Below, in pieces: positions 3,547 through 40,530 of a stretch of DNA of 40,781 nucleotides (within the stretch, counting starts at the first letter, position 1; each line of letters starts with the position of its first letter). This DNA comes from Sphingomonadaceae bacterium. Its GTDB lineage: Bacteria; Pseudomonadota; Alphaproteobacteria; Sphingomonadales; Sphingomonadaceae. Under the pieces are notes generated by a model. The model saw nothing but the letters and a program-made list of their open reading frames with translations. It had not been told where the DNA came from and made no database searches. The translations under genes and the position numbers were made by a program. The stretch is taken from positions 1 to 40,781 of the forward strand of contig CAHJWP010000006.1 in the NCBI GenBank assembly GCA_903642255.1, in the 5' to 3' direction.

Positions 3547-4785
3547 ATGGATTTCAGCGACACGCCGCAAGAAGCCGCCTTCCGCGCCGAGGTCCGCGCC
3601 TTCCTCGACGCGCACGTTCCCGCCAAGACGCCAGGCAACCGCAGCTATGCGAGCCGCGCGATGAGCCCCGCCGACGTCGCCGCATCGAAGGCATGGCAGC
3701 GGACCAAGGCCGAGAACGGCTTCGCCGGCATCCTGTGGCCGAAGGCGTTCGGCGGCCGCGAGGGGACGCCGATGGAGCACATCATCTTCCAGCAGGAGGA
3801 AGAGAATTACCTCGTCCCGGCGAGCGTGTTCAACCAGGGCGTCGGCATGGCGATGCCGACAGTGATGACCTTCGGCACGCCGGAACAGCTCGAACGCTAC
3901 CCGCGCCCGGCATTGTTCGGCGACGAGATCTGGTGCCAGCTGTTTTCGGAACCCGACGCCGGCTCCGACCTCGCCGGATTGCGGACGCGCGCGGTACAGG
4001 ACGGCGACGACTGGGTCGTCAACGGCCAGAAGATCTGGACGTCGAACGCGCATTTCTCCGATTATGCGATGCTGGTGACGCGGTCCGATCCGACCGTCGC
4101 CAAGCACGCGGGCCTGACGTTCTTCATCGTCGACATGAAGTCGCCGGGCATCGACGTGCGGCCGATCAAGCAGATTTCGGGCACCTCGAACTTCTGCGAG
4201 GTATTCCTGTCCGACGTCCGCATCCCCGACAGCCAGCGCCTCGGCGCGGTCGGCGCGGGGTGGAAGGTGGCGATGACGATGCTCGCCAACGAGCGCTTCA
4301 CCGTCGGCAAGACCGAGGGGCCCGACTTCGAAGACATCTTCCTGCTGACGCGCGGTCTCGAACTCGACGGCCGCCGCGCCGTCGACGATCCGGCGGTGAT
4401 CGAGCATCTCGCCGACTGGTACGTCCAGTCGGCGGGGCTGAAATACGCCCGCCTTCGGTCGCAGACGGCGCTGTCGCGCGGCAAGACGCCGGGGCCCGAG
4501 GCGTCGATCGGCAAGCTGGTCAGCGCGAGCAAGCTGCAGGACATCGCGACCTACGGCATCGACCTGCTCGGCCAGGCCGGGGCAGTGATGGACCCGGCGG
4601 TTGCGCCGATGAACGCGTGGTTCCAGCACGCCCTGCTGTATGCGCCGGGCAAGCGCATCGCCGGCGGGACCGACGAAATCCTGCGCAACATCATCGCCGA
4701 GCGCGTCCTCGGCCTGCCCGGCGACATCCGCGCCGACAAGGGACTGGCGTTCAACCAGGTTCCGACCAGCCGGCGGCAGGGCTGA
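3547..4785 (+). CDS. Acyl-CoA dehydrogenase, long subunit of a tandem pair
   Basis: A 412-residue acyl-CoA dehydrogenase. ATG 3547 gives MDFSDTPQEAAFRAEVRAFL, a typical start, although the same frame is open much further upstream. The FAD/substrate loop LFSEPDAGSDLAGLRT and the beta-domain segment WVVNGQKIWTSNAH are clear, and the C-terminus has GGTDEILRNIIAERVLGLP. At the position where medium-chain enzymes carry the catalytic Glu (YEGT), this protein reads AGGT, so any catalytic base must lie elsewhere. It sits directly after the shorter paralogue (5-bp gap). A CoA ligase-like gene follows 5 bp after its stop. An alpha,beta-dehydrogenation step on an activated acid is likely. Confidence 0.92.
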   Translation: MDFSDTPQEAAFRAEVRAFLDAHVPAKTPGNRSYASRAMSPADVAASKAWQRTKAENGFAGILWPKAFGGREGTPMEHIIFQQEEENYLVPASVFNQGVGMAMPTVMTFGTPEQLERYPRPALFGDEIWCQLFSEPDAGSDLAGLRTRAVQDGDDWVVNGQKIWTSNAHFSDYAMLVTRSDPTVAKHAGLTFFIVDMKSPGIDVRPIKQISGTSNFCEVFLSDVRIPDSQRLGAVGAGWKVAMTMLANERFTVGKTEGPDFEDIFLLTRGLELDGRRAVDDPAVIEHLADWYVQSAGLKYARLRSQTALSRGKTPGPEASIGKLVSASKLQDIATYGIDLLGQAGAVMDPAVAPMNAWFQHALLYAPGKRIAGGTDEILRNIIAERVLGLPGDIRADKGLAFNQVPTSRRQG

Positions 4786-19542: not shown

Positions 19543-20148
19543 CTACGACCCGCCGAGCGCCGAGGCGGGGACATAGCCGGTCGCCGCGCTCCAGAACATG
19601 TCGACGTCGGGATAGGTGCAGCGATGGTTGTTCCAGCGATGCTGCCAAATATCGCCAGCGGCATCCTTGTAGCGGCTGTCGGTCGAGGGCATTGCCTCGA
19701 GGTCCCAGAGCCGCTGGAGAAACTCGACATCCTCGAGTGTGCCCATCCAGGCAATATTGTCGACCTTAATGCCGTCGATGATGTTGCGGCGTGCGCGGCG
19801 CGACACCGACGCTGGCGCAGTCCGCCAGTCGGGGCGCGGCTGGATACGCGAACGGATGGTTGCGCTGAACCAGTTGTTATCGTCTTGCTCATAGACCAGC
19901 TTAACCCGCGCCGTGATCTGTTCCTCGAGCGTCGCGCGCTTGGCGCCGAGCCGGCCGAAGCTCGCGGGGTCGATAGACAGAAACACGGTGTAAAGTCGCG
20001 TGCCGCCGTTCCAATTGTCGTAACCGGTCTCGACGACCTCGGTCTCAGCTTCGCGCAACAATTCGGCGGCTTCCGCCATGCATTCGGCGGTCAGCATCGC
20101 CTCCACACTCGCCAGATAGGCTTCTTCGTCCAGCCCGCTCACGTCCAA
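19543..20148 (-). CDS. AbiJ-like N-terminal region, probably truncated
   Basis: About 200 residues. The N-terminal part contains YDNWNGGTRLYTVFLSID and LEEQI, recalling a domain seen at the start of abortive-infection-type and TIR-type proteins. The C-terminal part (LPS-like: LEAMPSTDSRYKDAAGDIWQH) resembles the AbiJ N-terminal domain 3 family. Such proteins normally continue into a HEPN or other effector domain. Here the frame stops shortly after, 37 bp from the end of the catabolic operon, so the effector half seems lost. TTG 20148 is preferred (AAGGA 8 bp upstream); an in-frame ATG lies at 20193 and a GTG at 20142. Family assignment is from remembered motifs. Confidence 0.5.
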   Translation of the reverse strand: MDVSGLDEEAYLASVEAMLTAECMAEAAELLREAETEVVETGYDNWNGGTRLYTVFLSIDPASFGRLGAKRATLEEQITARVKLVYEQDDNNWFSATIRSRIQPRPDWRTAPASVSRRARRNIIDGIKVDNIAWMGTLEDVEFLQRLWDLEAMPSTDSRYKDAAGDIWQHRWNNHRCTYPDVDMFWSAATGYVPASALGGS

Positions 20149-20228
20149 CGTTCCGTTCCTTACACTCCTCGGTCCATAGCATGGAACGAACACTGAACGA
20201 AATGCCGGATAGCGCGAACAATAAATCT

Positions 20229-20255
20229 AGGGGATTATCCCCTGGACGCAGGTAT
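20229..20255 (+). repeat. Left terminal inverted repeat of the IS1595-family element
   Basis: It starts AGGGGATTATCCC and ends CAGGTAT, and matches the reverse complement of 22858-22884 at 23 of 27 positions. The transposase ATG lies 22 bp inside it. Confidence 0.8.
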
Positions 20256-20277
20256 GGCGGTTTGCTAATCACAATGC

Positions 20278-21180
20278 ATGAGCAAGTCGCCCTCCGCATC
20301 GCCCGCCTTCAACGTCCGGGAGTTCTTCGCCCGCTTTCCTAACGATGAAGCGGTCCTCGATCATATCATGGCCGTTCGCTACGGCGGGACGACGTTCGAT
20401 TGCCCCAAGTGCGGCACGGTCAACGCCACGTTCCACCGCCTCGCCAACCGCCGCGCCTATAGCTGCGCTGCTTGCGGTCATGCCGTTTATCCGACCGCCG
20501 GGACGATCCTTCACGACACCCGAACGCCGCTCGTTTCGTGGTTCTTCGCGATCTACATGTTCGTCACCACCCGCCACGGTGTCAGCGGCAAAGAACTGCA
20601 GCGCCAGCTCGGCGTGACCTATAAGACGGCGTGGCGCATGGGGCAGCAAATTCGCTCGCTTATGGAAGCTGGCAATCTCGACGCGATGCTTTCGGGCCAT
20701 GTGGAAGCCGATGAAGCGTATGTCGGCGGTGTGCGTAGCGGCGGCAAGCGCGGTCGCGGCGCGCCGGGTAAGACGGTCGTTGTCGGCCTCGTCGAGCGTG
20801 GCGGGGCGATGAAGGCGGTTGTAGCCAAGGACGTTCGCAAGGCGACGCTCCGCGCGATCGTCAATGAGAACGTCGAAAAGGGTTCGGTCGTCTCGACTGA
20901 CGAACTGGCAAGCTATGGCTTACTCACCGGCGACGGATACACGCACGGCGCGGTAAAGCACGGCAAGCGCGAATATGCCTTCTACGATCACAAGCAGGGC
21001 GTGAACCACCACGTCAACAGCGTGGAATCGTTCTGGAAGCTGTTCAAGGACAGCATCAAGTCGACGCACATCCATATTTCGCCGAAGTATATGGACCGCT
21101 ACCTTGGCGAGTTCACTTTCCGGGCGAACCACCGCGACCGGGTGAACGGGATGTTCGATCTGCTGGTGGGGGCGCTTTGA
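20278..21180 (+). CDS. IS1595-family (ISXO2-like) transposase
   Basis: A 300-residue transposase. The N-terminal zinc ribbon has Cys42/Cys45 (DCPKC) and Cys63/Cys66 (CAAC). It is followed by a helix-turn-helix (GVSGKELQRQLGVTYKTAW). The DDE-type catalytic domain shows Asp145 in VEADEAYVGG, Asp208 in STDELASY and the C-terminal HHVNSVESFWKLFK block. The length and layout match ISXO2/IS1595. The gene starts 22 bp inside the left inverted repeat and looks intact, so the element may still be mobile. Confidence 0.93.
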   Translation: MSKSPSASPAFNVREFFARFPNDEAVLDHIMAVRYGGTTFDCPKCGTVNATFHRLANRRAYSCAACGHAVYPTAGTILHDTRTPLVSWFFAIYMFVTTRHGVSGKELQRQLGVTYKTAWRMGQQIRSLMEAGNLDAMLSGHVEADEAYVGGVRSGGKRGRGAPGKTVVVGLVERGGAMKAVVAKDVRKATLRAIVNENVEKGSVVSTDELASYGLLTGDGYTHGAVKHGKREYAFYDHKQGVNHHVNSVESFWKLFKDSIKSTHIHISPKYMDRYLGEFTFRANHRDRVNGMFDLLVGAL

Positions 21181-21307
21181 CAACGCCCGCGACAACCGCA
21201 TCAAAAGCCTGAAGCGACGCTGAGCCGATCCCGGCGGAATCCGCTTGAGATATAAATTCGTCTAGCCGTCCCTCGGCAAGCGCACGTGCCAGCGATATCT
21301 GTTCCAT
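21113..21307 (-). CDS. Small hypothetical protein inside the IS1595-family element
   Basis: A 64-residue ORF, MEQISLARALAEGRLDEF onward, with an amphipathic N-terminal half and a basic, Ser/Gly-rich tail (RTSRSPGRGGSPGK). It overlaps the transposase 3' end by 68 bp on the opposite strand. The sequence looks protein-like and I have a vague memory of similar short sphingomonad proteins. It has no strong ribosome-binding site. It could be a passenger or a chance ORF. Confidence 0.35.
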   Translation of the reverse strand: MEQISLARALAEGRLDEFISQADSAGIGSASLQAFDAVVAGVVKAPPPADRTSRSPGRGGSPGK

Positions 21308-21345
21308 AGCTGGCCTATAGACGGATTCGGTCAGATTCGCTATAT

Positions 21346-21416
21346 GGCCCCAGCGTGACGCTCACACTGGGGCCTGCCGGTCTAACCGGCTAGGTCGTTA
21401 TTAACGCCGTCACGCT
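21346..21416. terminator. Strongly structured region, likely terminator or RNA element, inside the IS
   Basis: Three nested or competing stems lie in 71 bases. GGCCCCAG (21346-21353) pairs with CTGGGGCC (21367-21374), with GTGA-CGC-TCAC inside. GCCGGT (21376-21381) pairs with ACCGGC (21385-21390). AGCGTGACG (21352-21360) pairs perfectly with CGTCACGCT (21408-21416), which excludes the first stem. It sits just downstream of the minus-strand gene at 21442, so a terminator is the simplest reading. The competing stems are unusual for that. Confidence 0.45.
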
Positions 21417-21441
21417 AGCACCTGCCTTCCTTAGTGGGGAG

Positions 21442-22005
21442 TTAGGGGTTGAGGAACAGCAGTTCGGAGTGGGTGCTCCGTCCTGCCTCTGTAGCGCCCG
21501 CCGGCTTGCCGTTGGGCGCTACATTCTCGTTCTGAACGCCGCCGATGAGGCCGGGCCCAGGAAAATATCTTCCGTTGCGGTGGAGCATCTCGTCGCCGTC
21601 TCGAAGGCGTTTGAACGTGTCGCGGTACTTCAGCGTCGACGGGTCGGCTTCCAGTATGGCGGACGCTGTCTCAACCAACTCTTCTTTAGATAACCCCATA
21701 GCTGGGGACATCCTAAGCGCCTCCCGGAACGCGCCGGCTACGGCCCCATAGCGGAAAGGCCGTGTCTCGGCCGAGTTCCAATGCACCTTAGGCCTTGCTG
21801 CCTTGGCACGAACTGAAGGCTGAGGGGTTCCCATGAAATCGCCAAGCGGAGCCGGCACTATGCCTTTTGCGGCCTTCAGGATGCTCTCAAAAGCCGACAG
21901 GTTACCGTCGCGATATCCCGCTTCGTACGCCGAGCGAATGGCGGCGCGGAGCGGTTCCGACAGGGAGCCGACCAGATCGTTCAATTGAGGGGTTAGGTCC
22001 GTCAT
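21442..22005 (-). CDS. Hypothetical passenger protein with possible winged-helix domain
   Basis: A 187-residue protein I cannot assign to a named family. Residues about 1-45 form a helical segment (LNDLVGSLSEPLRAAIRSAYEAGYRDG). The middle includes YGAVAGAFREAL. Residues about 105-155 read like a winged-helix fold: GLSKEELVETASAIL as the helix-turn-helix, then STLKYRDTFKRLRDGDEM and the wing LHRNGRYFPG. The C-terminal tail is low-complexity. It lies between the inverted repeats of the IS1595-family element, on the opposite strand to the transposase and the NYN gene. It may regulate the element or its neighbour; that is inference. Confidence 0.6.
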   Translation of the reverse strand: MTDLTPQLNDLVGSLSEPLRAAIRSAYEAGYRDGNLSAFESILKAAKGIVPAPLGDFMGTPQPSVRAKAARPKVHWNSAETRPFRYGAVAGAFREALRMSPAMGLSKEELVETASAILEADPSTLKYRDTFKRLRDGDEMLHRNGRYFPGPGLIGGVQNENVAPNGKPAGATEAGRSTHSELLFLNP

Positions 22006-22232
22006 AAACGCTTTGTAGAGGAAACCGACAACCGACGCAAGATGCGACGCGACGAATGCGGCGGTTGATAGCCCAAGGGCTTTTTTAGAATTCGGCCGTC
22101 GCTATTTAGGTGATGTAGCGCCGTAACGCGGTGCCACAAATAGGCGAGCGAGCCGGCTCATTCCGACAGGCCGCATTATGCGGCGCGCTAGCGCGCTAGG
22201 TGTGAGTCGGCTCCACCGTTCGGGGGCGAGAA

Positions 22233-22858
22233 TTGCAGCGACCGCTCTATGCAATTCTGGTGGACGGCGGGTATATAACCAAAATCCTAAAAGACAGGAA
22301 TAAGCAGGCGGCGACAGCCGATCAGGTGGAGGCCGAATGCACCCGGATCAGGGCGCTCCCTCTTGTTGCCGACTACGAGCTGCTTCGCATCTACTATTAT
22401 GATGCGTACCCATCGACCGAAAACGTAAAGCTTCCGATCACCGGAGCCGCTTTCCCGCTTGGACAAACGCCGCGGTTTCGCGAAGGCCAAGCGTTGCATG
22501 ACCGACTGATCCTGAAGCCCCATTTTGCGCTGAGAATGGGAAGCGTCACCATCTCGCCGCATCAGTGGAAACTAAAGCCCCGAGTAATGCGCGCGATTAT
22601 GCGAGCGCCGCGCCAACTACAAGACAATGATTTCGTCTTAGATATGACACAGAAAGGCGTCGACATGCGGATTGGCATGGATATGGCGCGACTTGCACTG
22701 CGCGAGATGGTGCGGCCGTGGTCGTTCTGACTGGAGACACTGATTTTGTGCCTGCCTTTAAATACGTCCGGCGTGAAGGCGTTAAGGTGTTCCTAGAAAC
22801 GATGGGCGGCGGGGGCCGTGTCGAGCTGAAAAGTCACGCCGATATCGTGATATCTTGA
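22233..22858 (+). pseudogene. NYN-domain (PIN-like) ribonuclease, one frameshift
   Basis: The first frame (22233-22730) begins MQRPLYAILVDGGYI with the first acidic residue of the NYN/LabA nuclease fold, and reaches KGVDMRIGMDMARLAL with further Asp residues. It stops early at 22730. The next frame continues directly with VVVLTGDTDFVPAFKYVR and KVFLETMGGGG, ending at TGA 22856-22858. Together they form a complete NYN domain of about 208 residues with the canonical TGDTDF site. One base appears missing near 22713 (GTGCG/GCCGTG). The stop codon overlaps the right inverted repeat of the IS1595-family element, so the gene is a passenger. The family cleaves RNA using a metal-binding Asp cluster. 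Confidence 0.7.
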
Positions 22859-22884
22859 TACCTGTCTCAAAGGGATAATCCCCT
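22858..22884 (-). repeat. Right terminal inverted repeat of the IS1595-family element
   Basis: Read on the minus strand it begins AGGGGATTATCCC and ends CAGGTAT, mirroring 20229-20255. It is followed by AAATCT, which also precedes the left repeat. Confidence 0.8.
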
Positions 22885-22890
22885 AAATCT

Positions 22891-23542
22891 ATGTCCTTCA
22901 AGGCGGCGAGGCGTCTCGAGGTGAAGCTGATGAGGTGGGGTCCGCCAGCCAACGGCAGACAATTGACAACCTGCCGGTTCTGGGATGGCGCGGGCCAGAC
23001 CCATTGCGACGACCGATGCACCACCGGTCTCCCAACAGGCCTCCGCTAACAACCGCTCGGCGCCGTTTCGACAGCTGATCAGGGCTGCGGCGTGCCGCGC
23101 GGATCGAGATATACGAATGACAGAAGTTGGGAAGGCGACAGGGGGCTCTGGATAACTGCTTCTGGGTCGTTCACCATCCGGCAGTTACTAAACCGAGGGC
23201 CTTAGCGGCCTGGCTCGCCTGAAGCTCCCCCGGCAGCAGCCAGGCCCGCGTGCATTTTAGGGACACCGATTCACGGTAGGCCAAGCCACTGATTTTGCCG
23301 GATCACGCGCAAGCGGACGATTGTAAAAGCCGTTCTAGAGGTCGTTGATCGTGCTTGGAATCGGCCTTCCAACAACCGTCACCTCCCCTATCCCCCGAAA
23401 GGCAACCCGTTTTTGGAAGACTGCCGTGAATCGGTGTCCCTACAATGCACTGCGGCCACAATGCGCGCTTTCAACGCCTGTAGGAGATCAGTTCGGACTA
23501 ACGATCCACTTCGACATTATCCGGCTTGGCCCAGCACACTGA
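22891..23542. other. Stretch without a recognisable gene
   Basis: About 650 bases between the IS right end and the putative retron RNA. A 53-codon ORF starts at ATG 22891 with several Cys residues near its end (THCDDRCTTG), but nothing identifies it. Minus-strand ORFs at 22782-23052 look non-coding. CCAACAAC (23369-23376) is complementary to GTTGTTGG (23590-23597), a possible long-range pairing with the RNA region. I see no other structure. Confidence 0.4.
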
Positions 23543-23718
23543 GGCGGGGAGGACCAGATAGACGTTGCGACCAAGGAAAGGCTTGGTATGTTGTTGGCAC
23601 GGGGTCCTCCCTCGCATACGCGCTGTGATAACTGCGGCGTAAGAGTCAATGTCTGCACCTATCGTGCGCGCCGAATGCTTCCTGCGAGCCACGGCGTGAT
23701 TGGAAGGGGACCCCGTGC
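23543..23718 (+). ncRNA. Candidate retron ncRNA (msr-msd) or 5' leader of the reverse transcriptase
   Basis: Two mutually exclusive long stems lie directly upstream of the RT. Stem I pairs GGGAGGACC (23547-23555) with GGTCCTCCC (23603-23611) and contains ACCAAG/CTTGGT (23570-23575, 23582-23587). Stem II pairs GCACGGGGTCC (23597-23607) with GGACCCCGTGC (23708-23718). It encloses CTCGCA/TGCGAG (23611-23616, 23683-23688) and TACGC/GCGTA (23617-23621, 23637-23641), a multibranched fold. Retron ncRNAs sit just 5' of the RT and are closed by an a1/a2 stem, which stem II could be. However, its right arm covers the presumed ribosome site and GTG start, so a translation switch is also possible. Confidence 0.4.
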
Positions 23719-24908
23719 TAAGTCCGGCTCGCGCGTTTGGCCCGCCAATCCGCGTCACCTTGCCTCCGGAACTGGCCAGCGAGGCGACCATCCTCGCGCA
23801 CCTCGGTGTAAGCCCCGCCGAAGCGAAGAAGATCCGCTACTATCGGTCGAGGATGTATCAGACATTTGCCGTGCAGAAGAAGTCCGGCAAGCAGCGGATC
23901 ATCAACGCTCCAGATCGTCGGCTGAAAATGCTGCAGCGGAAAATCTGCGACCTGCTCAACCCGCTCTACAAGCGTCGAAATCCTGTGCACGGCTTCGTTG
24001 CCGAACGGTCCGTGAAGACCAACGCCCAATCCCACTTGGGGAGCAAGTATGTCGTGAACCTCGATCTGAAGGACTTCTTTCCTTCGATTACCGAGCGGCG
24101 CATCACCGGCGTCCTGACGGCGTTGGGGATTGGGCGTGACGTCGCGGATATCCTGTCGTCGATCTGCTGTGTAAACGGCGGGCTTCCACAAGGGGCGCCA
24201 AGCAGCCCGATACTGTCCAACATGATCTGCTTCAGGCTAGACAAGGAGCTGATGACCTTCGCGAAGGGTGCGAGATGTATCTACACCCGCTATGCAGACG
24301 ATCTCACCTTCTCGAGCTACCAGCCTCTGACTGGCCTGTTCGAGGCGCCGCCGCCGCCATCCGGCAGTTTCGCACCCGACGCGCTCGCCTTGGGATTGAG
24401 CGGCATCTTCGATGCCAACGGCTTCGTCCTCAATCCTGAAAAAGCCCACTATGCCGACCGCAACTCAAGGAGGACGGTCACGGGCCTGCGAGTAAACGAG
24501 GCGTTGAACGTGGATCGCAAATTCGTGCGCAACCTGCGCGCTGCGCTCCGTTCGGTTGAAGTGCTCGGCGAAAAGGCAGCCGAAGCCAAATTTCATGCCG
24601 AGCACGGGGGCAGCGCAGCAATCGGGAGCCACCTTCAAGGAAAGCTGTCTTGGCTCGGGCACATCAAGGGGCCCTCCGACCCGGTCTTCCGCGGCATCGC
24701 TGCGCGCTTCAACCATTCGTTTCCGGCGTTGGCGCTCGCGATCCAGCCGACCCAGTCTGAGGTGCGGGAACGCGCCGTATGGCTAATTGAGCACTGGGAG
24801 GGGTCCGGCGATCAGGGCACCGCGTTCTTCATGAAAGACGTTGGCCTAGTTCTGACTGGTTCGGCGGAGATCGGTGGCATATGTCGAAGGCGAGCTGTTT
24901 CGCGATGA
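23715..24908 (+). CDS. Retron-type reverse transcriptase, C-terminal protease extension lost
   Basis: A 397-residue reverse transcriptase from GTG 23715 (GGAAGGGGA upstream). RT motifs in order: KKSGKQRIINAP, NPVHGFV, NLDLKDFFPSI with the first Asp (about 117), GLPQGAPSSPILSN, catalytic RYADDLTFS (about 192-200) and VTGLRVN, the VTG motif of retron RTs. After the thumb region the chain reads QGTAFFMKDVGLV, like the first strand of the trypsin-like serine protease fused to some retron RTs. It then runs into unrelated sequence (LTGSAEIGG) and stops. So the protease domain is deleted. RT activity may remain; immunity by the intact system is doubtful. Confidence 0.82.
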   Translation: MLSPARAFGPPIRVTLPPELASEATILAHLGVSPAEAKKIRYYRSRMYQTFAVQKKSGKQRIINAPDRRLKMLQRKICDLLNPLYKRRNPVHGFVAERSVKTNAQSHLGSKYVVNLDLKDFFPSITERRITGVLTALGIGRDVADILSSICCVNGGLPQGAPSSPILSNMICFRLDKELMTFAKGARCIYTRYADDLTFSSYQPLTGLFEAPPPPSGSFAPDALALGLSGIFDANGFVLNPEKAHYADRNSRRTVTGLRVNEALNVDRKFVRNLRAALRSVEVLGEKAAEAKFHAEHGGSAAIGSHLQGKLSWLGHIKGPSDPVFRGIAARFNHSFPALALAIQPTQSEVRERAVWLIEHWEGSGDQGTAFFMKDVGLVLTGSAEIGGICRRRAVSR

Positions 24909-25632
24909 GGCTATGCTTGACGGGGGCGTGAGCTTCCTGCGACATCTTCTCCCCGTTAATGCTCTGGTCGACGCGTCGTCGGAGAAGGGTGTATTTACCG
25001 AGGAGCAGACCTTATTTAGCCAAGACTCCGTTTTCCGCATTATTGTCGATGACATTGCAGCAAACGATGATGTCCTTATCTGCGACGATCTTGGCCATAA
25101 AATGGGCCGACTTTATCGGGCTTAATACGCAAGCGCGGCCGCCCAGCATCAACTTCTACGACGGCAAGCACGGCGCCTTGACCCTTGGCGCGTCCTCGTT
25201 CCATGTTTCCGTCAGCCAAGCAGAAAAAGAACTTAGGTCGCATGGCGATGCAACCTGACGCCGTGGAAGCGAAGTATGGCGGTTGGGCTACGAATTACGT
25301 CGGCCCGAACGTCCAGTCAGCCATCGCTCGCATCGTTCGCGGCGGAGCGATCGCAGATATCAGGCAGCACATCGACGTGGCTCGCCAAGCTCCCGATGCT
25401 GTGAGACATGTCTACATTGTGACGTCGTCGCTGAGCAAAGCGCAGGTCGAAGCGGTATTCCAGGAGCTGGCTAACGGCGGCCGGCCCTCGGCGCATTTCG
25501 TGCAGCTCTACTGGCTCCTAATGGCTTGGCGATTATGTAGTTTACACTTTGTAAACTACATAATCGCCAATGGCTTACTACTCTGCGTGCGCTGAAATGG
25601 GCGCCGTCGGCTTCGTGGTGTGCCAGCCATAG
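24856..25632 (+). pseudogene. C-terminal remnant of a large, probably defence-related protein (helicase-associated type), interrupted by a palindrome
   Basis: Three frames chain into one protein tail of about 240 residues. Frame one (24856-about 25105) runs from VEGELFRDEAMLDGG to VLICDDLG. Frame two covers WADFIGLN and SINFYDGKHGALTLGAS. Frame three runs from KNLGRM through HVYIVTSSLSKAQVEAVF to VQLYWLLMA. The frame changes fall in AAAA (about 25097-25100) and AAAAA (about 25228-25232), one extra base each. The last frame is broken by the 41-bp palindrome; without it the protein continues to GFVVCQP and a stop at 25630-25632. From memory, the CDDLG...WADF block resembles tails of SF2 helicase-like proteins. 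No N-terminal part exists: it abuts the truncated RT. Confidence 0.5.
25520..25576. repeat. Perfect 41-bp palindromic insertion with 8-bp target duplication
   Basis: GGCGATTATGTAGTTTACA (25528-25546), a three-base centre CTT and the exact reverse complement (25550-25568) form a flawless 19-bp-arm hairpin. AATGGCTT flanks it on both sides (25520-25527 and 25569-25576). Deleting one flank plus the palindrome restores an open frame ending WLLMAYYSACAEMGAVG and CQP. This is the signature of a transposition event that left only two abutted ends, or of a tiny non-autonomous element. I do not recognise the end sequence. No second copy was seen in the window. Confidence 0.85.
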
Positions 25633-36392: not shown

Positions 36393-36629
36393 ATGGACAC
36401 TGCCAAGCTGTTCTGGACCGGCCGCAGCCAGGCGGTACGGCTGCCGCGCGCGTACCGGATCGACGGCGACGCCGTTCGCATCCGGCGAGTGGGCGCGGCG
36501 GTAGTGCTTGAGCCGCTGCCGGTCAGCTGGGCGTGGCTCGACCGCCTGCAGCCGGTCGACGCCGACTTTCTAGACGAGGGCCGCGATCAGCCGCCGCCGC
36601 AGCCGCGGGCGCTGTTCGACGCGGCGTGA
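36393..36629 (+). CDS. vapB: VapB-type antitoxin
   Basis: A 78-residue AbrB/MazE-fold antitoxin. MDTAKLFWTGRSQAVRLPRAYRI is the characteristic DNA-binding swapped-hairpin start (piece: AKLFWTGRSQAVRLPRAYR). The C-terminal third, rich in Asp, Glu and Pro (FLDEGRDQPPPQ), is the flexible toxin-neutralising tail. ATG 36393 has GGGGAG 7 bp upstream; the frame is open to 36366. The stop overlaps the toxin start by 4 bp (GTGA), the usual translational coupling in these modules. Confidence 0.9.
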   Translation: MDTAKLFWTGRSQAVRLPRAYRIDGDAVRIRRVGAAVVLEPLPVSWAWLDRLQPVDADFLDEGRDQPPPQPRALFDAA

Positions 36630-37024
36630 CCTACTCGCTCGACACCAACGCGGTCATTGCCGTGCTGCGCGATCCCGGTAGCACCGTCGCGCAGCGGCTG
36701 CGCCAGCAGTCGCCCGGAGATGTGGCGGTATCCGCGGTCGTCCTGCACGAACTCTACTGGGGCGCGTACCGTTCGGCCAGGGTCGAGCATAATCTCGCGC
36801 AGGTCGACGCGCTGGCCCTCCCGGTGCTCGACCTCGACCTCGACGATGCGCGCGAGGCCGGGCGCCTCCGCGCCGAGCTGGCCGCTGCAGGTCTGCCGAT
36901 CGGTGGCTACGATCTGCTCATCGCCGGGCAGGCGCGCGCCCGGGGGCTGATCGTCGTCACCGCCAACACCCGCGAGTTCGAGCGCGTCGCGGGGCTGAGC
37001 GTTGAGGATTGGGCGGCGGCGTGA
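36626..37024 (+). CDS. vapC: VapC-type PIN-domain toxin ribonuclease
   Basis: A 132-residue PIN-domain endoribonuclease toxin starting at GTG 36626. The acidic metal-binding residues are Asp6 (YSLDTNAVI), Glu42 (VLHELYWGAY) and Asp96 (IGGYDLLIAGQA). The C-terminal VTANTREFERV segment is also standard, with Asn114 in the conserved position. The family cleaves tRNA or rRNA when free of VapB. The module looks complete and probably helps keep the island in the chromosome. Confidence 0.92.
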   Translation: MTYSLDTNAVIAVLRDPGSTVAQRLRQQSPGDVAVSAVVLHELYWGAYRSARVEHNLAQVDALALPVLDLDLDDAREAGRLRAELAAAGLPIGGYDLLIAGQARARGLIVVTANTREFERVAGLSVEDWAAA

Positions 37025-37154: not shown

Positions 37155-38739
37155 AGAAGTCAGTTTCTCGGCAAAGTAGAGATGTCAGTTGGAGTGGCCA
37201 GGCGGTGCGCGGAGCCGCCCCACACGAGCGCAGCGTGCCGCCTGGCCGCGGGCCACGCACTCAGGCTGGTAGTTGTTCGCCGCGCCGGGGCGGACGCTTC
37301 GGCGGCACCGCCGCCTCGATCACCTTGGCCAGCGCAAACGCCGCTGCCAGCCGATGACCATTGTCCGGAGCAGGCGCCGGGAACATGTGCTGCGGCTGCG
37401 CCCGCCGGGTCGGCTCGTCGTTGTTGCGCTTTCCCGGCCCGCGCAGCGCCTGCATCTCCCGCGCGACCGCGAGCACCTCACCCAGATGCTTATTGTCGAC
37501 GATCGCCGCTTGGTTGACGCGCCGCAGCTTGTCGAACACCCGGTAGGGAAGGGCGGTGCCCTCGTGCCGGATCTCGAGACGCCCATCGGAATACTCGCAG
37601 ACGCAGACCTGCTTGCCTACCAGCTCGCGGCTGATGGCGTTCGGCTCGAGGATGAACATCATCTTGTTGTAATGCAGTGTCAGCGCCGAGGTGACGGTGC
37701 GCTTCTCGCGCCAGACCATCGTCGCATCGAGATCCTCGTGCAGCGCCAGTGGCCGGTGCAGGTCCTTCGGGTTGTACGGCTCGACCGCGAAGCGGTCATT
37801 ATGCTTCGTCATAAACGCGGGCAGGAAGGCGTTGGCAGCCTCGATGTCGCTGATACCGGCCAGGCGCAGCTCCTTGACCAGTCGATCCTGCAGCGTCTGG
37901 TGGACCCGCTCGACCCGACCCTTGGCCGGTGCCGAGTTGGCGCAGATGATCTCGATGTTGAGGGCGTCGAGCACGCGACCGAACTGGCTCATGCCGTCGC
38001 TGCGCTTGGCGCTGGCGGCGTGCACCCGGAACACGCTGTGCTTGTCGGAATAGAATGCCACCGGCTTGCCGTGCGCTTCGATGTACGCCCGCGTCGCCTG
38101 CATATAGGCGAACGCGCTCTCGGTCGGCACCATGGTCAGCTGCATCAGCCGGCTGGTCGCATCGTCGATGAATACCAGCAGCGACGTTTTCGGGCCACGA
38201 TCCTCGAACCACCAGTGCGTCGACCCGTCGATCTGGATCAGCTCGCCCAGGCAGTCGCGCCGGTAGCGTGGTTGGTAAACCCTTGCGCGCCGGGCGCGAC
38301 GCTCGGTCCACAGGCCGTCGGCGATCATCAGCTTGCGTAGCGTCTCCTTCGACAAATGAATGTCGTGCAGCTCGGCGAGCTTCTCGGCCGCGAACGTTGG
38401 ACCGAAATCATGGTACCGGGCGCGAACCAGCGCGATCGCCGCGGTCCTGACCTCGTCGGGCAATCGCCGGTTACTCGGGCGACCGCGGCGACGTGACGAC
38501 AATCCGGCGGCACCATCGGATCGCAATCGGTCGAGCAGCCGGAAAACATGCCGCTCACTCAGGCGAAGCAGGGCGACCGCGTCCGCGATCGCCAACTCAC
38601 CGCGATCGACCCGCACCAGCGTATCGAACCGCGCCAACTCCGCGTCGCTCATTAGCCGCACCGCCATCACAGCCTCCCGTCCGAACGGGAGGACAATGCG
38701 CCAGCGCTGACATCTCTACTTTGCCGGGCACTGACATCT
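37155..38739 (-). mobile_element. ISNCY (IS1202-group)-type insertion sequence
   Basis: A single transposase gene is bounded by imperfect inverted repeats of about 34 bp. The left end is 37155-37188 and the right end 38707-38739. They share CGGCAAAGTAGAGATGTCAG (20 bases) plus an outer copy of the AGATGTCAG motif (AGAAGTCAG on the left). Each end therefore contains the motif twice, 24-25 bp apart, as expected for tandem transposase-binding sites. No convincing target duplication was found around the outer edges. Total length is about 1.6 kb. Confidence 0.8.
37261..38667 (-). CDS. ISNCY-family DDE transposase
   Basis: A 468-residue transposase. The N-terminal helix-turn-helix (DAVALLRLSERHVFRLLDRL) is followed by an Arg-rich linker (SSRRRGRPSNRRL). 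The rve-type catalytic core begins IQIDGSTHWWF with the first Asp. FIDDATSRLMQLTMVPTES precedes GKPVAFYSDKHSVFR with the second Asp, and ANSAPAKGRVERVHQTLQDR holds the Glu. The C-terminal domain recalls a Mu-type/SH3-like end. ATG 38667 follows GGGAGG with 5-bp spacing; GTG 38670 is an alternative. The gene looks intact. Confidence 0.9.
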   Translation of the reverse strand: MAVRLMSDAELARFDTLVRVDRGELAIADAVALLRLSERHVFRLLDRLRSDGAAGLSSRRRGRPSNRRLPDEVRTAAIALVRARYHDFGPTFAAEKLAELHDIHLSKETLRKLMIADGLWTERRARRARVYQPRYRRDCLGELIQIDGSTHWWFEDRGPKTSLLVFIDDATSRLMQLTMVPTESAFAYMQATRAYIEAHGKPVAFYSDKHSVFRVHAASAKRSDGMSQFGRVLDALNIEIICANSAPAKGRVERVHQTLQDRLVKELRLAGISDIEAANAFLPAFMTKHNDRFAVEPYNPKDLHRPLALHEDLDATMVWREKRTVTSALTLHYNKMMFILEPNAISRELVGKQVCVCEYSDGRLEIRHEGTALPYRVFDKLRRVNQAAIVDNKHLGEVLAVAREMQALRGPGKRNNDEPTRRAQPQHMFPAPAPDNGHRLAAAFALAKVIEAAVPPKRPPRRGEQLPA

Positions 38740-39336: not shown

Positions 39337-40530
39337 CTAGCTCCCTTCAACCGCCGCGCTGCCGCAGAACGCTGCCCACTCGGCCATCATCGTCCGGCGC
39401 TTGGTGAGGAAGTCGGTGCGGCGATACGCGGCCTCGACCTTGTTCTGGACGGTGTGGGCGAGCGCGGCTTCCGCGACTTCACCGGGAAAATTGGTCTCCT
39501 CGGCGACCCAGTCGCGGAAGCTCGAGCGAAAACCGTGCGGCGTCGCGCTGCATCCCATGTCGTCGATGACTTTGCCGATCGTCATGTTCGACATCGGCTT
39601 CTTCGGTGCTCGGCCGTAGAACACGAGGTCGGTGCACGGGATGCGGAACTCGGCGACGCGCTCGAGCACGGCGAGCGCGGCGTCGGACACCGGTACGACG
39701 TGCTTGACAGCCGCCTTCATACGCTCGGCGGGCACCGTCCATGTCGCCGCCTTAAGGTCGAACTCGCGCCAGGTCGCCTCGCGGATTTCACCTGACCGCG
39801 CGGCGGTCAGGATCAGGAACTCGAGCGCGATGCGTCCCATGCTCGGCCGGCCCGCTCTCAGGTCGGCAACAAAGGCCGGCACGTCGGGGAAGGGCATCGC
39901 TTCGAAATGGCCCTTCTGCTTGGGCTGACGCGGCAGCGTCAGCGACAGCGAGCGCATCGGCAGCTCGGTCGCCCGGTAGCCCTTGGCGCAGCTCCAGTCG
40001 AGGATGACGCCGATGCGCTGGCGGATACGGCGCGCCGTCTCTGGCTTCGCCAGCCAGATGCGCGCGAGCACGTCGCGCACGGCGGGTCCGTCGACCGTGT
40101 CGACCAGCCGGTCGCCGATCAGCGGAAAGACGTAGTTCTCGAGGCTGACGAGCCACTGCGCCGCGTGCTTGTCGCTCCGCCACGAGTCGCGTCGCTCGGC
40201 GTGGACCTCGATCGCCGCTGCACGGAAGGTCGGGGCAAGCGGCGGCGGGCCGTGTTTCAGGTGCTGCAGCCGCGCTCCCGCGAAGCTCAGCGGCGGCGGG
40301 GCCTCGGCGAGGCATATCCGCCGCAACTCGCGGGCCGCCTCCCGGGCCTGCGCGAGGTCGCGCCGGGCGACGCTGCCAAGGCCGAGGTCGCGCCGGCGGC
40401 CGCCGGCGTTCGTGCGCAGGATCCAGCTCTTGCTGCCGTGCGGTCCGACCAGCAGGTAGAGGCCGTCGCCGTCGCAATAGCGACCTGGCTCGGTGAGCGT
40501 CTTGATCTGGTTTGGTGTCAGTTTTCCCAT
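39337..40530 (-). CDS. Tyrosine-type site-specific integrase (P4-like)
   Basis: A 397-residue tyrosine recombinase. Residues 1-75 form the DUF4102-type arm-binding domain (YCDGDGLYLLVGPHGSKSW). A SAM-like core-binding domain spans about 100-200. The catalytic domain has Arg245 (TAARSGEIR), His332 and Arg335 (PHGFRSSFRDW), His359 (LAHTVQNKVEAAY) and nucleophile Tyr369. The set is complete, so the enzyme is probably active. It starts 174 bp from the 3' end of the tRNA-Ser gene, the normal place for an integrase that uses a tRNA 3' end as attB. Confidence 0.95.
   Translation of the reverse strand: MGKLTPNQIKTLTEPGRYCDGDGLYLLVGPHGSKSWILRTNAGGRRRDLGLGSVARRDLAQAREAARELRRICLAEAPPPLSFAGARLQHLKHGPPPLAPTFRAAAIEVHAERRDSWRSDKHAAQWLVSLENYVFPLIGDRLVDTVDGPAVRDVLARIWLAKPETARRIRQRIGVILDWSCAKGYRATELPMRSLSLTLPRQPKQKGHFEAMPFPDVPAFVADLRAGRPSMGRIALEFLILTAARSGEIREATWREFDLKAATWTVPAERMKAAVKHVVPVSDAALAVLERVAEFRIPCTDLVFYGRAPKKPMSNMTIGKVIDDMGCSATPHGFRSSFRDWVAEETNFPGEVAEAALAHTVQNKVEAAYRRTDFLTKRRTMMAEWAAFCGSAAVEGS

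Follow-up and report, generated by a model that had tools for sequence, protein, structure and literature searches.

Insertion sequences of the IS1595 family encode a transposase with DDE_Tnp_IS1595 and zinc-ribbon domains, are bounded by inverted ends and an 8-bp target duplication (PMC8101967), and include members, termed tIS, that carry passenger genes (PMC7986276). In type III toxin-antitoxin systems such as ToxIN, CptNI and TenpNI, which are mobile, an RNA with tandem repeats, a terminator and a nuclease gene form one transcription unit, and the type III-like AbiF/RCd22 module of a C. difficile prophage has a comparable order of promoter, small structured RNA, terminator, ribosome site and ribonuclease-type gene (PMC12373285). 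LabA-like and NYN family proteins include VPA0982 (2qip), the MARF1 NYN and a CRISPR-associated NYN characterised as a sequence-nonspecific ssRNase (PMC11346440). Here we describe a small IS1595-family transposon that carries a broken gene for a likely RNA-cutting NYN enzyme together with a folded RNA directly in front of it. The same kind of RNA-plus-enzyme pair was found in viruses, plasmids and chromosomes of many bacteria without, as far as our searches show, having been described.

The window analysed was a 40,781-nucleotide stretch of a Sphingomonadaceae contig, in which the initial annotation had proposed an IS1595-family element carrying a NYN nuclease and a regulator as cargo, and this observation was confirmed (Table 1). 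The 8-bp direct repeat enclosing both ends is perfect and had not been reported; the first A of the end sequence initially given, AGGGGATTATCCC, belongs to this target duplication. The same geometry of ends gave at most 17/24 matches at 28 other places of the window and at most 15/24 in 40 base shuffles. The transposase matched PF12762 (135.5 bits, E 2e-39), PF12760 (37 bits against a cut-off of 25.4, E 3e-9) and NF033547 (201.7 bits against a cut-off of 75).

Table 1. Features of the transposon and its target duplication, in window positions.
Position	Strand	Feature	Remarks
20222-20229		Left copy of 8-bp target-site duplication	TAAATCTA
20230-20253	+	Left terminal inverted repeat, 24 bp	GGGGATTATCCCCTGGACGCAGGT; 20/24 to the right one
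20278-21180	+	IS1595-family transposase, 300 aa	Zinc ribbon and DDE domain
21442-22005	-	Cargo 1: orphan 187-aa protein	Predicted helices and strands at residues 87-149 could be a winged helix, but the model is of low confidence (pLDDT 46.5)
22150-22213	+	Cargo 2a: structured leader RNA	Three-way junction; P1 22150-22160 with 22203-22213; ends 19 nt before the NYN start; model R2, in whose training set it is, matches 22148-22216
22233-22730	+	Cargo 2b: NYN nuclease, N-terminal part	TTG start; homologous to relatives up to about 22715
22718-22858	+	NYN nuclease, C-terminal part	GDTD motif, in another frame; stop 22856-22858
22860-22883	-	Right terminal inverted repeat	Imperfect inverse of the left one
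22884-22891		Right copy of target-site duplication	TAAATCTA

Comparison with related transposase loci (collected loci are denoted L, genomes G) showed that cargo is the rule in this group. Of 32 loci, L040/L048 and L044/L049 were the same places, leaving 30, of which 22 lie in elements with this kind of end; for L050 the second-ranked pair of ends was taken because it matches the family ends, and L062 is weak (18/24). The eight loci without a pair were L037, L038, L040, L045, L046, L051, L054 and L057, with L045 and L051 on short contigs. Extra ORFs, mostly different ones, were carried by 21 of the 22 elements, and cargo in this clade included ImmA/IrrE, Panacea, N6 methylase and protease genes. 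An element without a cargo ORF exists (L066, 1195 bp), and the window could alternatively be read as a bare IS1595 element beside unrelated genes. This is very improbable, as the right end and the target duplication lie beyond the NYN gene and 21 of 22 relatives have the same build.

The initial interpretation was only partly borne out. An IS1595-family element with passenger genes is supported, as is NYN as cargo, which was seen a second time in an independent IS1595-family element (L084), and a defence- or addiction-like character is plausible from the RNA-plus-nuclease layout and from the other cargo in this clade. The reading of nuclease plus regulator as a unit was not supported. Recurrence of the same cargo between the same ends, proposed beforehand as a test, was not found in the 22 related elements; nor, in what was searched, were the two cargo genes found together without the transposase, so that the condition stated for rejecting the proposal was only half fulfilled. 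The 12-base end had no other copy in the window's own assembly, which is 71% complete. Of 142 NYN locus records, some overlapping and with flanks of 1.5-5 kb at most, only that of the window (L104) and L084/L070 had an IS1595 transposase match (five query transposases, E up to 1e-5).

The putative regulator is an orphan. It matched no family, with Pfam at E up to 1 giving only a chance-level hit of 0.14, and it had no plasmid match. Of 96 pattern matches in genome contigs none was confirmed, and a search of 289 genomes gave, besides the window, one weak match (E 7e-4) whose locus (L090) had no match to transposase or NYN queries. Outside the window's own copies no match at or below E 0.2 was found in the 242 loci collected, and none was found in L084. 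Resemblance to the small helical cargo of L036, L041, L043 and L047 (15–27% identity) was not significant, and of those only L041 and L043 match each other.

The NYN gene of the window is present in two frames, broken near 22716. The N-terminal part matched phrog_5783 (E 8e-33) without a Pfam match, while the C-terminal part reached 22.2 bits to PF01936, just under the cut-off of 24.2, and its stop abuts the inner edge of the right repeat. This copy is therefore either decayed or carries an assembly error. Five intact relatives scored 28.4–40.8 bits to PF01936 with no other family listed. The nearest intact relative (L238), 73% identical to the N-terminal part of the window's protein, lies beside an integrase and a tRNA on a viral contig, as shown by Pfam analysis of neighbours and a tRNA scan. 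A NYN profile found no match among PDB sequences, but the predicted structure of the L238 protein (pLDDT 95.7) matched the MARF1 NYN (Z 17.7, rmsd 2.4, 141 aligned) and VPA0982 (Z 17.5, rmsd 2.7, 151 aligned), and there are invariant aspartates. Relatives were found in 162 of 72,556 plasmid records, and 177 viral relatives were identified.

The conserved partner of the NYN gene, which the initial annotation had not noticed, is the folded RNA before it. Single-sequence folds upstream of 10 NYN genes gave z from -5.3 to +0.45, several being unremarkable, and a controlled comparison was made in which the hairpin score, its threshold of 18 and the T-tract rule were fixed in advance. Of 80 viral loci 78 had a usable start, and a hairpin plus T-tract preceded 59 of these 78 NYN genes in comparison to 9 of 228 other ORFs on the same contigs; after removal of NYN proteins 80% or more alike the counts, by the same rules, were 46 of 61 against 7 of 179. 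A model (R1) built on 9 leaders from bacterial genomes gave 26 hits at E up to 0.1 in the 80 viral loci, 25 of them 14–66 nt before the NYN start (median 20), albeit 54 of the 80 loci had no R1 hit and 19 of the 78 genes failed the hairpin-plus-T criterion. Distant NYN relatives (L079, L112) showed no such leader by eye. MAFFT/RNAalifold on 16 leaders recovered only 4 pairs because the inner stem differs in length, and the structure was therefore set by hand on 9 leaders. Compensatory change was then seen in 13 of 17 pairs, against 0 of 500 shuffles, although these counts rest on an alignment fitted to that structure, which leans towards it. No leader overlapped an Rfam match at E up to 1 in 19 loci, the window locus (L067) included. 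That the hairpin is merely a terminator insulating an ordinary passenger gene is suggested by the many leaders that end in a T-tract. This is very unlikely, however, given the control counts, the compensatory changes with conserved internal-loop bases, and the conservation of the window subclass without a T-tract in three of its four members.

The window's own leader has no T-tract and no recognisable promoter and was missed by R1, although the four leaders of its subclass fold alike (z -3.6 to -5.9). A promoter-like sequence with at least 9/12 matches was found before 15 of 23 RNAs in comparison to about 0.9% of 460 random positions. Some RNA copies stand without NYN. In 398 genomes R1 gave 17 strong hits, of which 10 have a NYN gene directly downstream (7 of those being model training sequences, one of which, in G493, has an internal stop), 1 has a NYN remnant and 6 have none recognisable; without training sequences, 3 of 10 have NYN. 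Fourteen places below 35 bits were not counted, and the ORF lists of 13 of them showed nothing read as NYN. Alternatively, the leader may act only in cis, as an attenuator or autoregulatory site at which the nuclease or a host factor acts on its own mRNA leader to keep its level low, as occurs for other RNases, without antitoxin action in trans or a role in defence. The near-constant spacing to the start codon and the terminator-like 3' ends are consistent with this, and in the window subclass the RNA would stay joined to the mRNA for lack of a T-tract. This alternative remains possible but is the less favoured, as RNAs without a recognisable NYN gene and the promoter-like sequence suggest an RNA with a role of its own, and conserved unpaired bases (AGUA, GA) go beyond what a terminator needs, although the 16 leaders in which they were examined were chosen for AGUA.

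In summary, our analysis demonstrated that the element is an IS1595-family transposon with passenger genes that moved as one unit. It also showed that its NYN cargo belongs to a mobile family of NYN (PIN-like) proteins (phrog_5783) usually preceded, about 20 nt before the start codon, by a conserved structured RNA, which in the commonest class has a promoter-like sequence at its 5' end and a T-tract at its 3' end, so that it looks like a discrete small RNA with the nuclease behind its terminator. What remains inference, without experimental support, is that the NYN protein is a ribonuclease that recognises this RNA, and that the RNA restrains it. In this view most transcripts would stop after the RNA, so that RNA would exceed nuclease mRNA, and loss of transcription (phage takeover or loss of the element) would free the nuclease, as type III-like modules such as AbiF/RCd22 are described. 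We give this reading a probability of roughly 0.5; against it count the window's own leader without T-tract, recognisable promoter or R1 hit and its broken nuclease frame, the RNA copies without NYN, the viral NYN genes and loci without a hairpin plus T-tract or an R1 hit, the single RNA motif in place of tandem repeats, the distant NYN relatives without such a leader by eye, and the sequence-nonspecific activity of the CRISPR-associated NYN (PMC11346440). The RNA may instead be an active component (substrate, guide or sensor) of an anti-phage RNP with the NYN protein. NYN genes beside an integrase (L238, L239) and in a Thermus BREX locus (L120), and an orphan RNA between the N6 methylase and specificity genes of a type I restriction operon (L136), are in keeping with this, but nothing shows a guide-like variable region or activation, and we consider it unlikely.

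More tentatively, and less likely than not, the pair may represent a widespread, undescribed type III-like module in which a single-motif RNA binds and holds in check a NYN ribonuclease, traded between prophages, conjugative plasmids, defence loci and IS1595 transposons. If the AGUA/GA internal loop of the commonest class is a bulged-G motif, which it may resemble, like that of the 23S sarcin-ricin loop, the RNA could be a decoy for the real target of the nuclease. The phage family library lists phrog_5783 as of unknown function despite its frequency on mobile DNA, and the conserved RNA provides a testable reason for this mobility and a candidate RNA family without a match in Rfam 15. If the RNA restrains the nuclease, RNA-restrained nucleases would extend from the ToxN and AbiF proteins to the PIN-like fold. 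Small IS1595 transposons are also shown as carriers of defence-like genes.

In comparison to described tIS elements, the transposon shares the transposase domains, the inverted ends, the 8-bp target duplication and the position of passenger genes between transposase and right end, and differs in that its cargo is a structured-RNA-plus-NYN module and an orphan protein. With the LabA-like and NYN proteins the family shares the predicted fold and acidic residues, while no RNA partner encoded directly before the CRISPR-associated NYN appears in what was consulted of its description (PMC11346440). As in ToxIN, CptNI and TenpNI, a structured RNA lies directly upstream of the nuclease gene on mobile DNA, with terminator-like T-tracts between them in 59 of 78 viral copies but not in the window copy. 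The RNA lacks tandem repeats, with one R1 match per locus in 24 sources and one R2 match in the window, and the nuclease has a predicted NYN fold whereas ToxN has another. AbiF/RCd22 has a HEPN-like (Abi_2) protein and two RNA motifs in place of a NYN (PIN-like) protein and a single motif, and neutralisation was shown there and is only inferred here, but its order of promoter, structured RNA, terminator and ribonuclease-type gene on a prophage is that of the commonest layout found in our analysis, with promoter and terminator predicted from sequence.

Analysis of the repeat pair reported in the initial annotation showed that it is real. The element itself spans 2654 bp, with 24-bp ends that match at 20 of 24 positions and a perfect 8-bp direct repeat, TAAATCTA, on both outer sides. 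The same search geometry gave at most 17/24 at 28 other places of the window and at most 15/24 in 40 base shuffles. The transposase was assigned to the IS1595 family by both Pfam and NCBIfam, and 8-bp duplications together with the zinc-finger and DDE_Tnp_IS1595 domains are given as features of this family (PMC8101967). The 12-base end occurred nowhere else in the assembly of the window, which is 71% complete. An ORF on the left of the element, whose end matched only positions 2–62 of 167 of AbiJ_NTD3, represents a truncated abortive-infection-type gene that starts 28 bp from the target duplication. The right end of the window looks like a mobile island.

Coordinates of features in the window and in related loci (L numbers denote sequence loci retrieved for comparison)
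Locus	Coordinates	Strand	Feature
Window	19543-20193	-	ORF with partial AbiJ_NTD3 match
Window	20221-20255 / 22858-22892		Repeat pair
Window	20230-22883		IS1595-family element
Window	22150-22213		Leader RNA, three-way junction (P1 22150-22160/22203-22213, then P2 and P3)
Window	22233-22730		NYN gene, first frame, ending early
Window	22856-22858		Stop of the NYN part with the GDTD motif, in another frame
Window	23243-23457		37-nt inverted repeat (23243-23279/23421-23457)
Window	23700-24908; 24874-25125	+; +	Retron-type reverse transcriptase; C-terminal part appears to continue in another frame (PDC-S71 match)
Window	36533-37024		PIN-domain protein (65.4 bits)
Window	37261-38670		469-aa helix-turn-helix protein, by eye like an integrase-core transposase
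Window	39337-40530		Phage-type tyrosine integrase
L136	1501-1566	-	Leader RNA without NYN, between N6_Mtase and Methylase_S genes of a type I restriction operon
L154	1501-1569	-	Leader RNA without NYN, before a DUF2281 gene
L138	1501-1569	+	Leader RNA without NYN, before a Peptidase_M78 (ImmA/IrrE) gene
L120 (Thermus thermophilus plasmid)	3992-4705		NYN gene between a helicase-related gene after brxL and an N-6 methylase gene
L084	1046-1124	-	int-alpA RNA (RF02996, 45.7 bits) near the second NYN-carrying IS1595 element

To determine whether related transposases carry comparable cargo, 32 loci were retrieved, of which 30 were distinct. Twenty-two of the 30 lie between ends of the same style with an 8-bp duplication, and 21 of these 22 carry at least one extra ORF of 90 aa or more, the exception being L066 (1195 bp). 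The cargo mostly differed from element to element and included ImmA/IrrE peptidase (L061, L064, and L039 by similarity), trypsin-like protease (L052, L060), DUF7946 (L058, L065), N6 methylase (L056), SocA/Panacea (L063), DUF433 with MerR (L035), DUF5343 (L042) and proteins without a clear family. The ImmA/IrrE-type peptidase, accompanied by a small second protein in L061 and L064, recurs in separate IS1595-family elements, as do the trypsin-like and DUF7946 proteins. No NYN was seen among the cargo of the 22. Passenger-bearing elements have been described as 'tIS' (PMC7986276, which lists the 2009 paper 'The new IS1595 family'), so that the transposon itself is a further element of this already described type.

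The NYN gene of the window is split between two frames. The nine relatives first examined are in one frame throughout, while in a further set three relatives from bacterial genomes (G493, G504, G390) have an internal stop. The neighbouring retron-type reverse transcriptase gene, with RT-Protease_XI as its best PADLOC match (451.7 bits), also seems broken, so an assembly fault is possible; the inverted repeat just upstream of this gene could be its ncRNA. A second IS1595-family element, L084 (transposase 32% identical; 2494 bp; duplication GAATCTCC; ends 22/24), carries an intact NYN gene of the same family antiparallel to its transposase, without the middle protein found in the window. Of 142 NYN locus records, only these two cases have an IS1595 transposase nearby. 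The nearest relative, L238, is 73% identical over 161 residues and lies between an integrase gene and a tRNA-Val gene on a viral contig. NYN relatives were found in 162 of 72,556 plasmid records (Campylobacter 134, Xanthomonas 13, Aeromonas 8, Thermus 2, five others), in 15 of 50,697 phage records and in 177 viral stretches, of which the best 80 were kept.

A structured RNA was observed upstream of many NYN starts. The commonest class reads AUCCGCCCC..GG(C)AGUA(C/A)G - inner stem - (C)GA.CC..GGGGC-UUUU, and a model (R1) was built from nine leaders. An alignment of 24 matches has 17 pairs, 13 of them with changes on both sides that keep the pair; none of 500 shuffles reached any of the five measures, and the slid versions scored lower (covariation score 0.240 against 0.024–0.120). 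It is important to note that this alignment is fitted to the structure, and that seven of its 24 rows are leaders without an intact NYN gene downstream while an eighth (L095) precedes a NYN gene with an internal stop. No leader overlapped an Rfam match at E up to 1 in 19 loci. By eye, a third class of NYN leader (GGCUGC ... GGGUG..AUAUA ... GGCGGCC, T-tract) is present in a set of viral contigs (L157–L162, L164–L166, L168, L207).

The association between the RNA and NYN genes was examined in several ways. Among 78 viral NYN genes, a hairpin plus T-tract was found upstream of 59, in comparison to 9 of 228 upstream regions of other long ORFs on the same contigs (Fisher p 2e-36). After removal of NYN proteins 80% or more alike, the values were 46 of 61 against 7 of 179 (p 1e-28). 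R1, trained on leaders from bacterial genomes, gave 26 hits at E up to 0.1 in the 80 viral loci (470 kb), of which 25 lie 14–66 nt before the NYN start (median 20) and one (L198) does not; 54 loci had no hit, although some of these have leaders of other classes. Of 41 sources, 18 had an R1 match at E below 0.01, nine of them training leaders, while the window and the loci L068–L070 had none. A search of 398 genomes that did not start from NYN identified 29 with a hit at E up to 0.01. Of 17 strong hits (35 bits or more), 10 have NYN directly downstream (7 of these are training leaders), one (L128) has a NYN remnant and six have none recognisable (L135, L136, L137, L138, L140, L154). Without the training leaders, 3 of 10 have NYN. 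NYN of this family therefore usually has the RNA, but the RNA also occurs alone.

Directly before 23 leaders of the common class (seven of them without intact NYN), 15 have a -35/-10 pair with at least 9 of 12 consensus matches, in comparison to about 0.9% of 460 random positions. Together with the T-tract, the common class looks like a small-RNA gene with the nuclease behind its terminator. No such promoter pair is seen before the leader of the window, and this copy also has no T-tract.

The leader of the window forms a predicted three-way junction and ends 19 nt before the TTG start. Three other leaders share it, namely L093 (from a genome of another family, with a NYN 57% identical to that of the window) and the viral L155 and L156. 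All four fold into the same shape (z -4.1, -5.9, -5.3 and -3.6), with compensatory changes readable in P1 (G-C to A-U) and in P2 (C-G, U-A, G-U). A second model (R2) found these four at 79–88 bits in 45 sources, although they are its training set, with two further weak hits at 23 and 21 bits; in 147 genomes of the order it found only the window and one borderline match.

An AlphaFold2 model of the L238 protein, based on 22 sequences, had a pLDDT of 95.7. The best solved structural matches to this predicted fold are NYN domains: mouse MARF1 (Z 17.7, rmsd 2.4, 141 aligned), VPA0982 2qip (Z 17.5, rmsd 2.7, 151 aligned) and human MARF1 (Z 16.8, rmsd 2.3, 139 aligned), while the next matches are below 8. 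Aspartates 11, 57, 144, 150, 169, 171 and 204 are invariant in the 22 sequences; D11, D57, D144 and D150 lie in the first frame of the window and D169 and D171 in the broken-off part.

Literature searches on NYN with structured RNA, with toxin-antitoxin and type III toxin-antitoxin systems and with noncoding RNA plus prophages, and on LabA/DUF88 proteins, returned nothing on such a pair, although a prior description cannot be excluded because most subscription papers and all bioRxiv preprints fell outside the literature covered. IS1595 passenger genes were searched separately from NYN. A CRISPR-associated NYN has been described as a sequence-nonspecific, Mn-dependent ssRNase (PMC11346440). A defence role for the present family is inferred from the places in which it is found, that is, adjacent to an integrase in L238 and in the locus L239, inside a BREX-like locus of Thermus (L120), where a hairpin and T-run precede the gene, and on a Klebsiella plasmid with phage genes.

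While the transposon ends, the leader RNA and its association with NYN rest on the sequence comparisons, the mechanism is inferred by analogy, namely that the NYN protein binds its RNA and is restrained by it. Cis-only autoregulation remains a strong rival to this reading. The nearest precedent is AbiF/RCd22 (PMC12373285), where a prophage-borne HEPN-like protein lies behind a promoter, a structured RNA and a terminator, and where the RNA lowers expression and neutralises the protein by binding. In comparison to type III systems, the present pair has one RNA motif rather than tandem repeats, and another fold, both of which argue against full type III membership.
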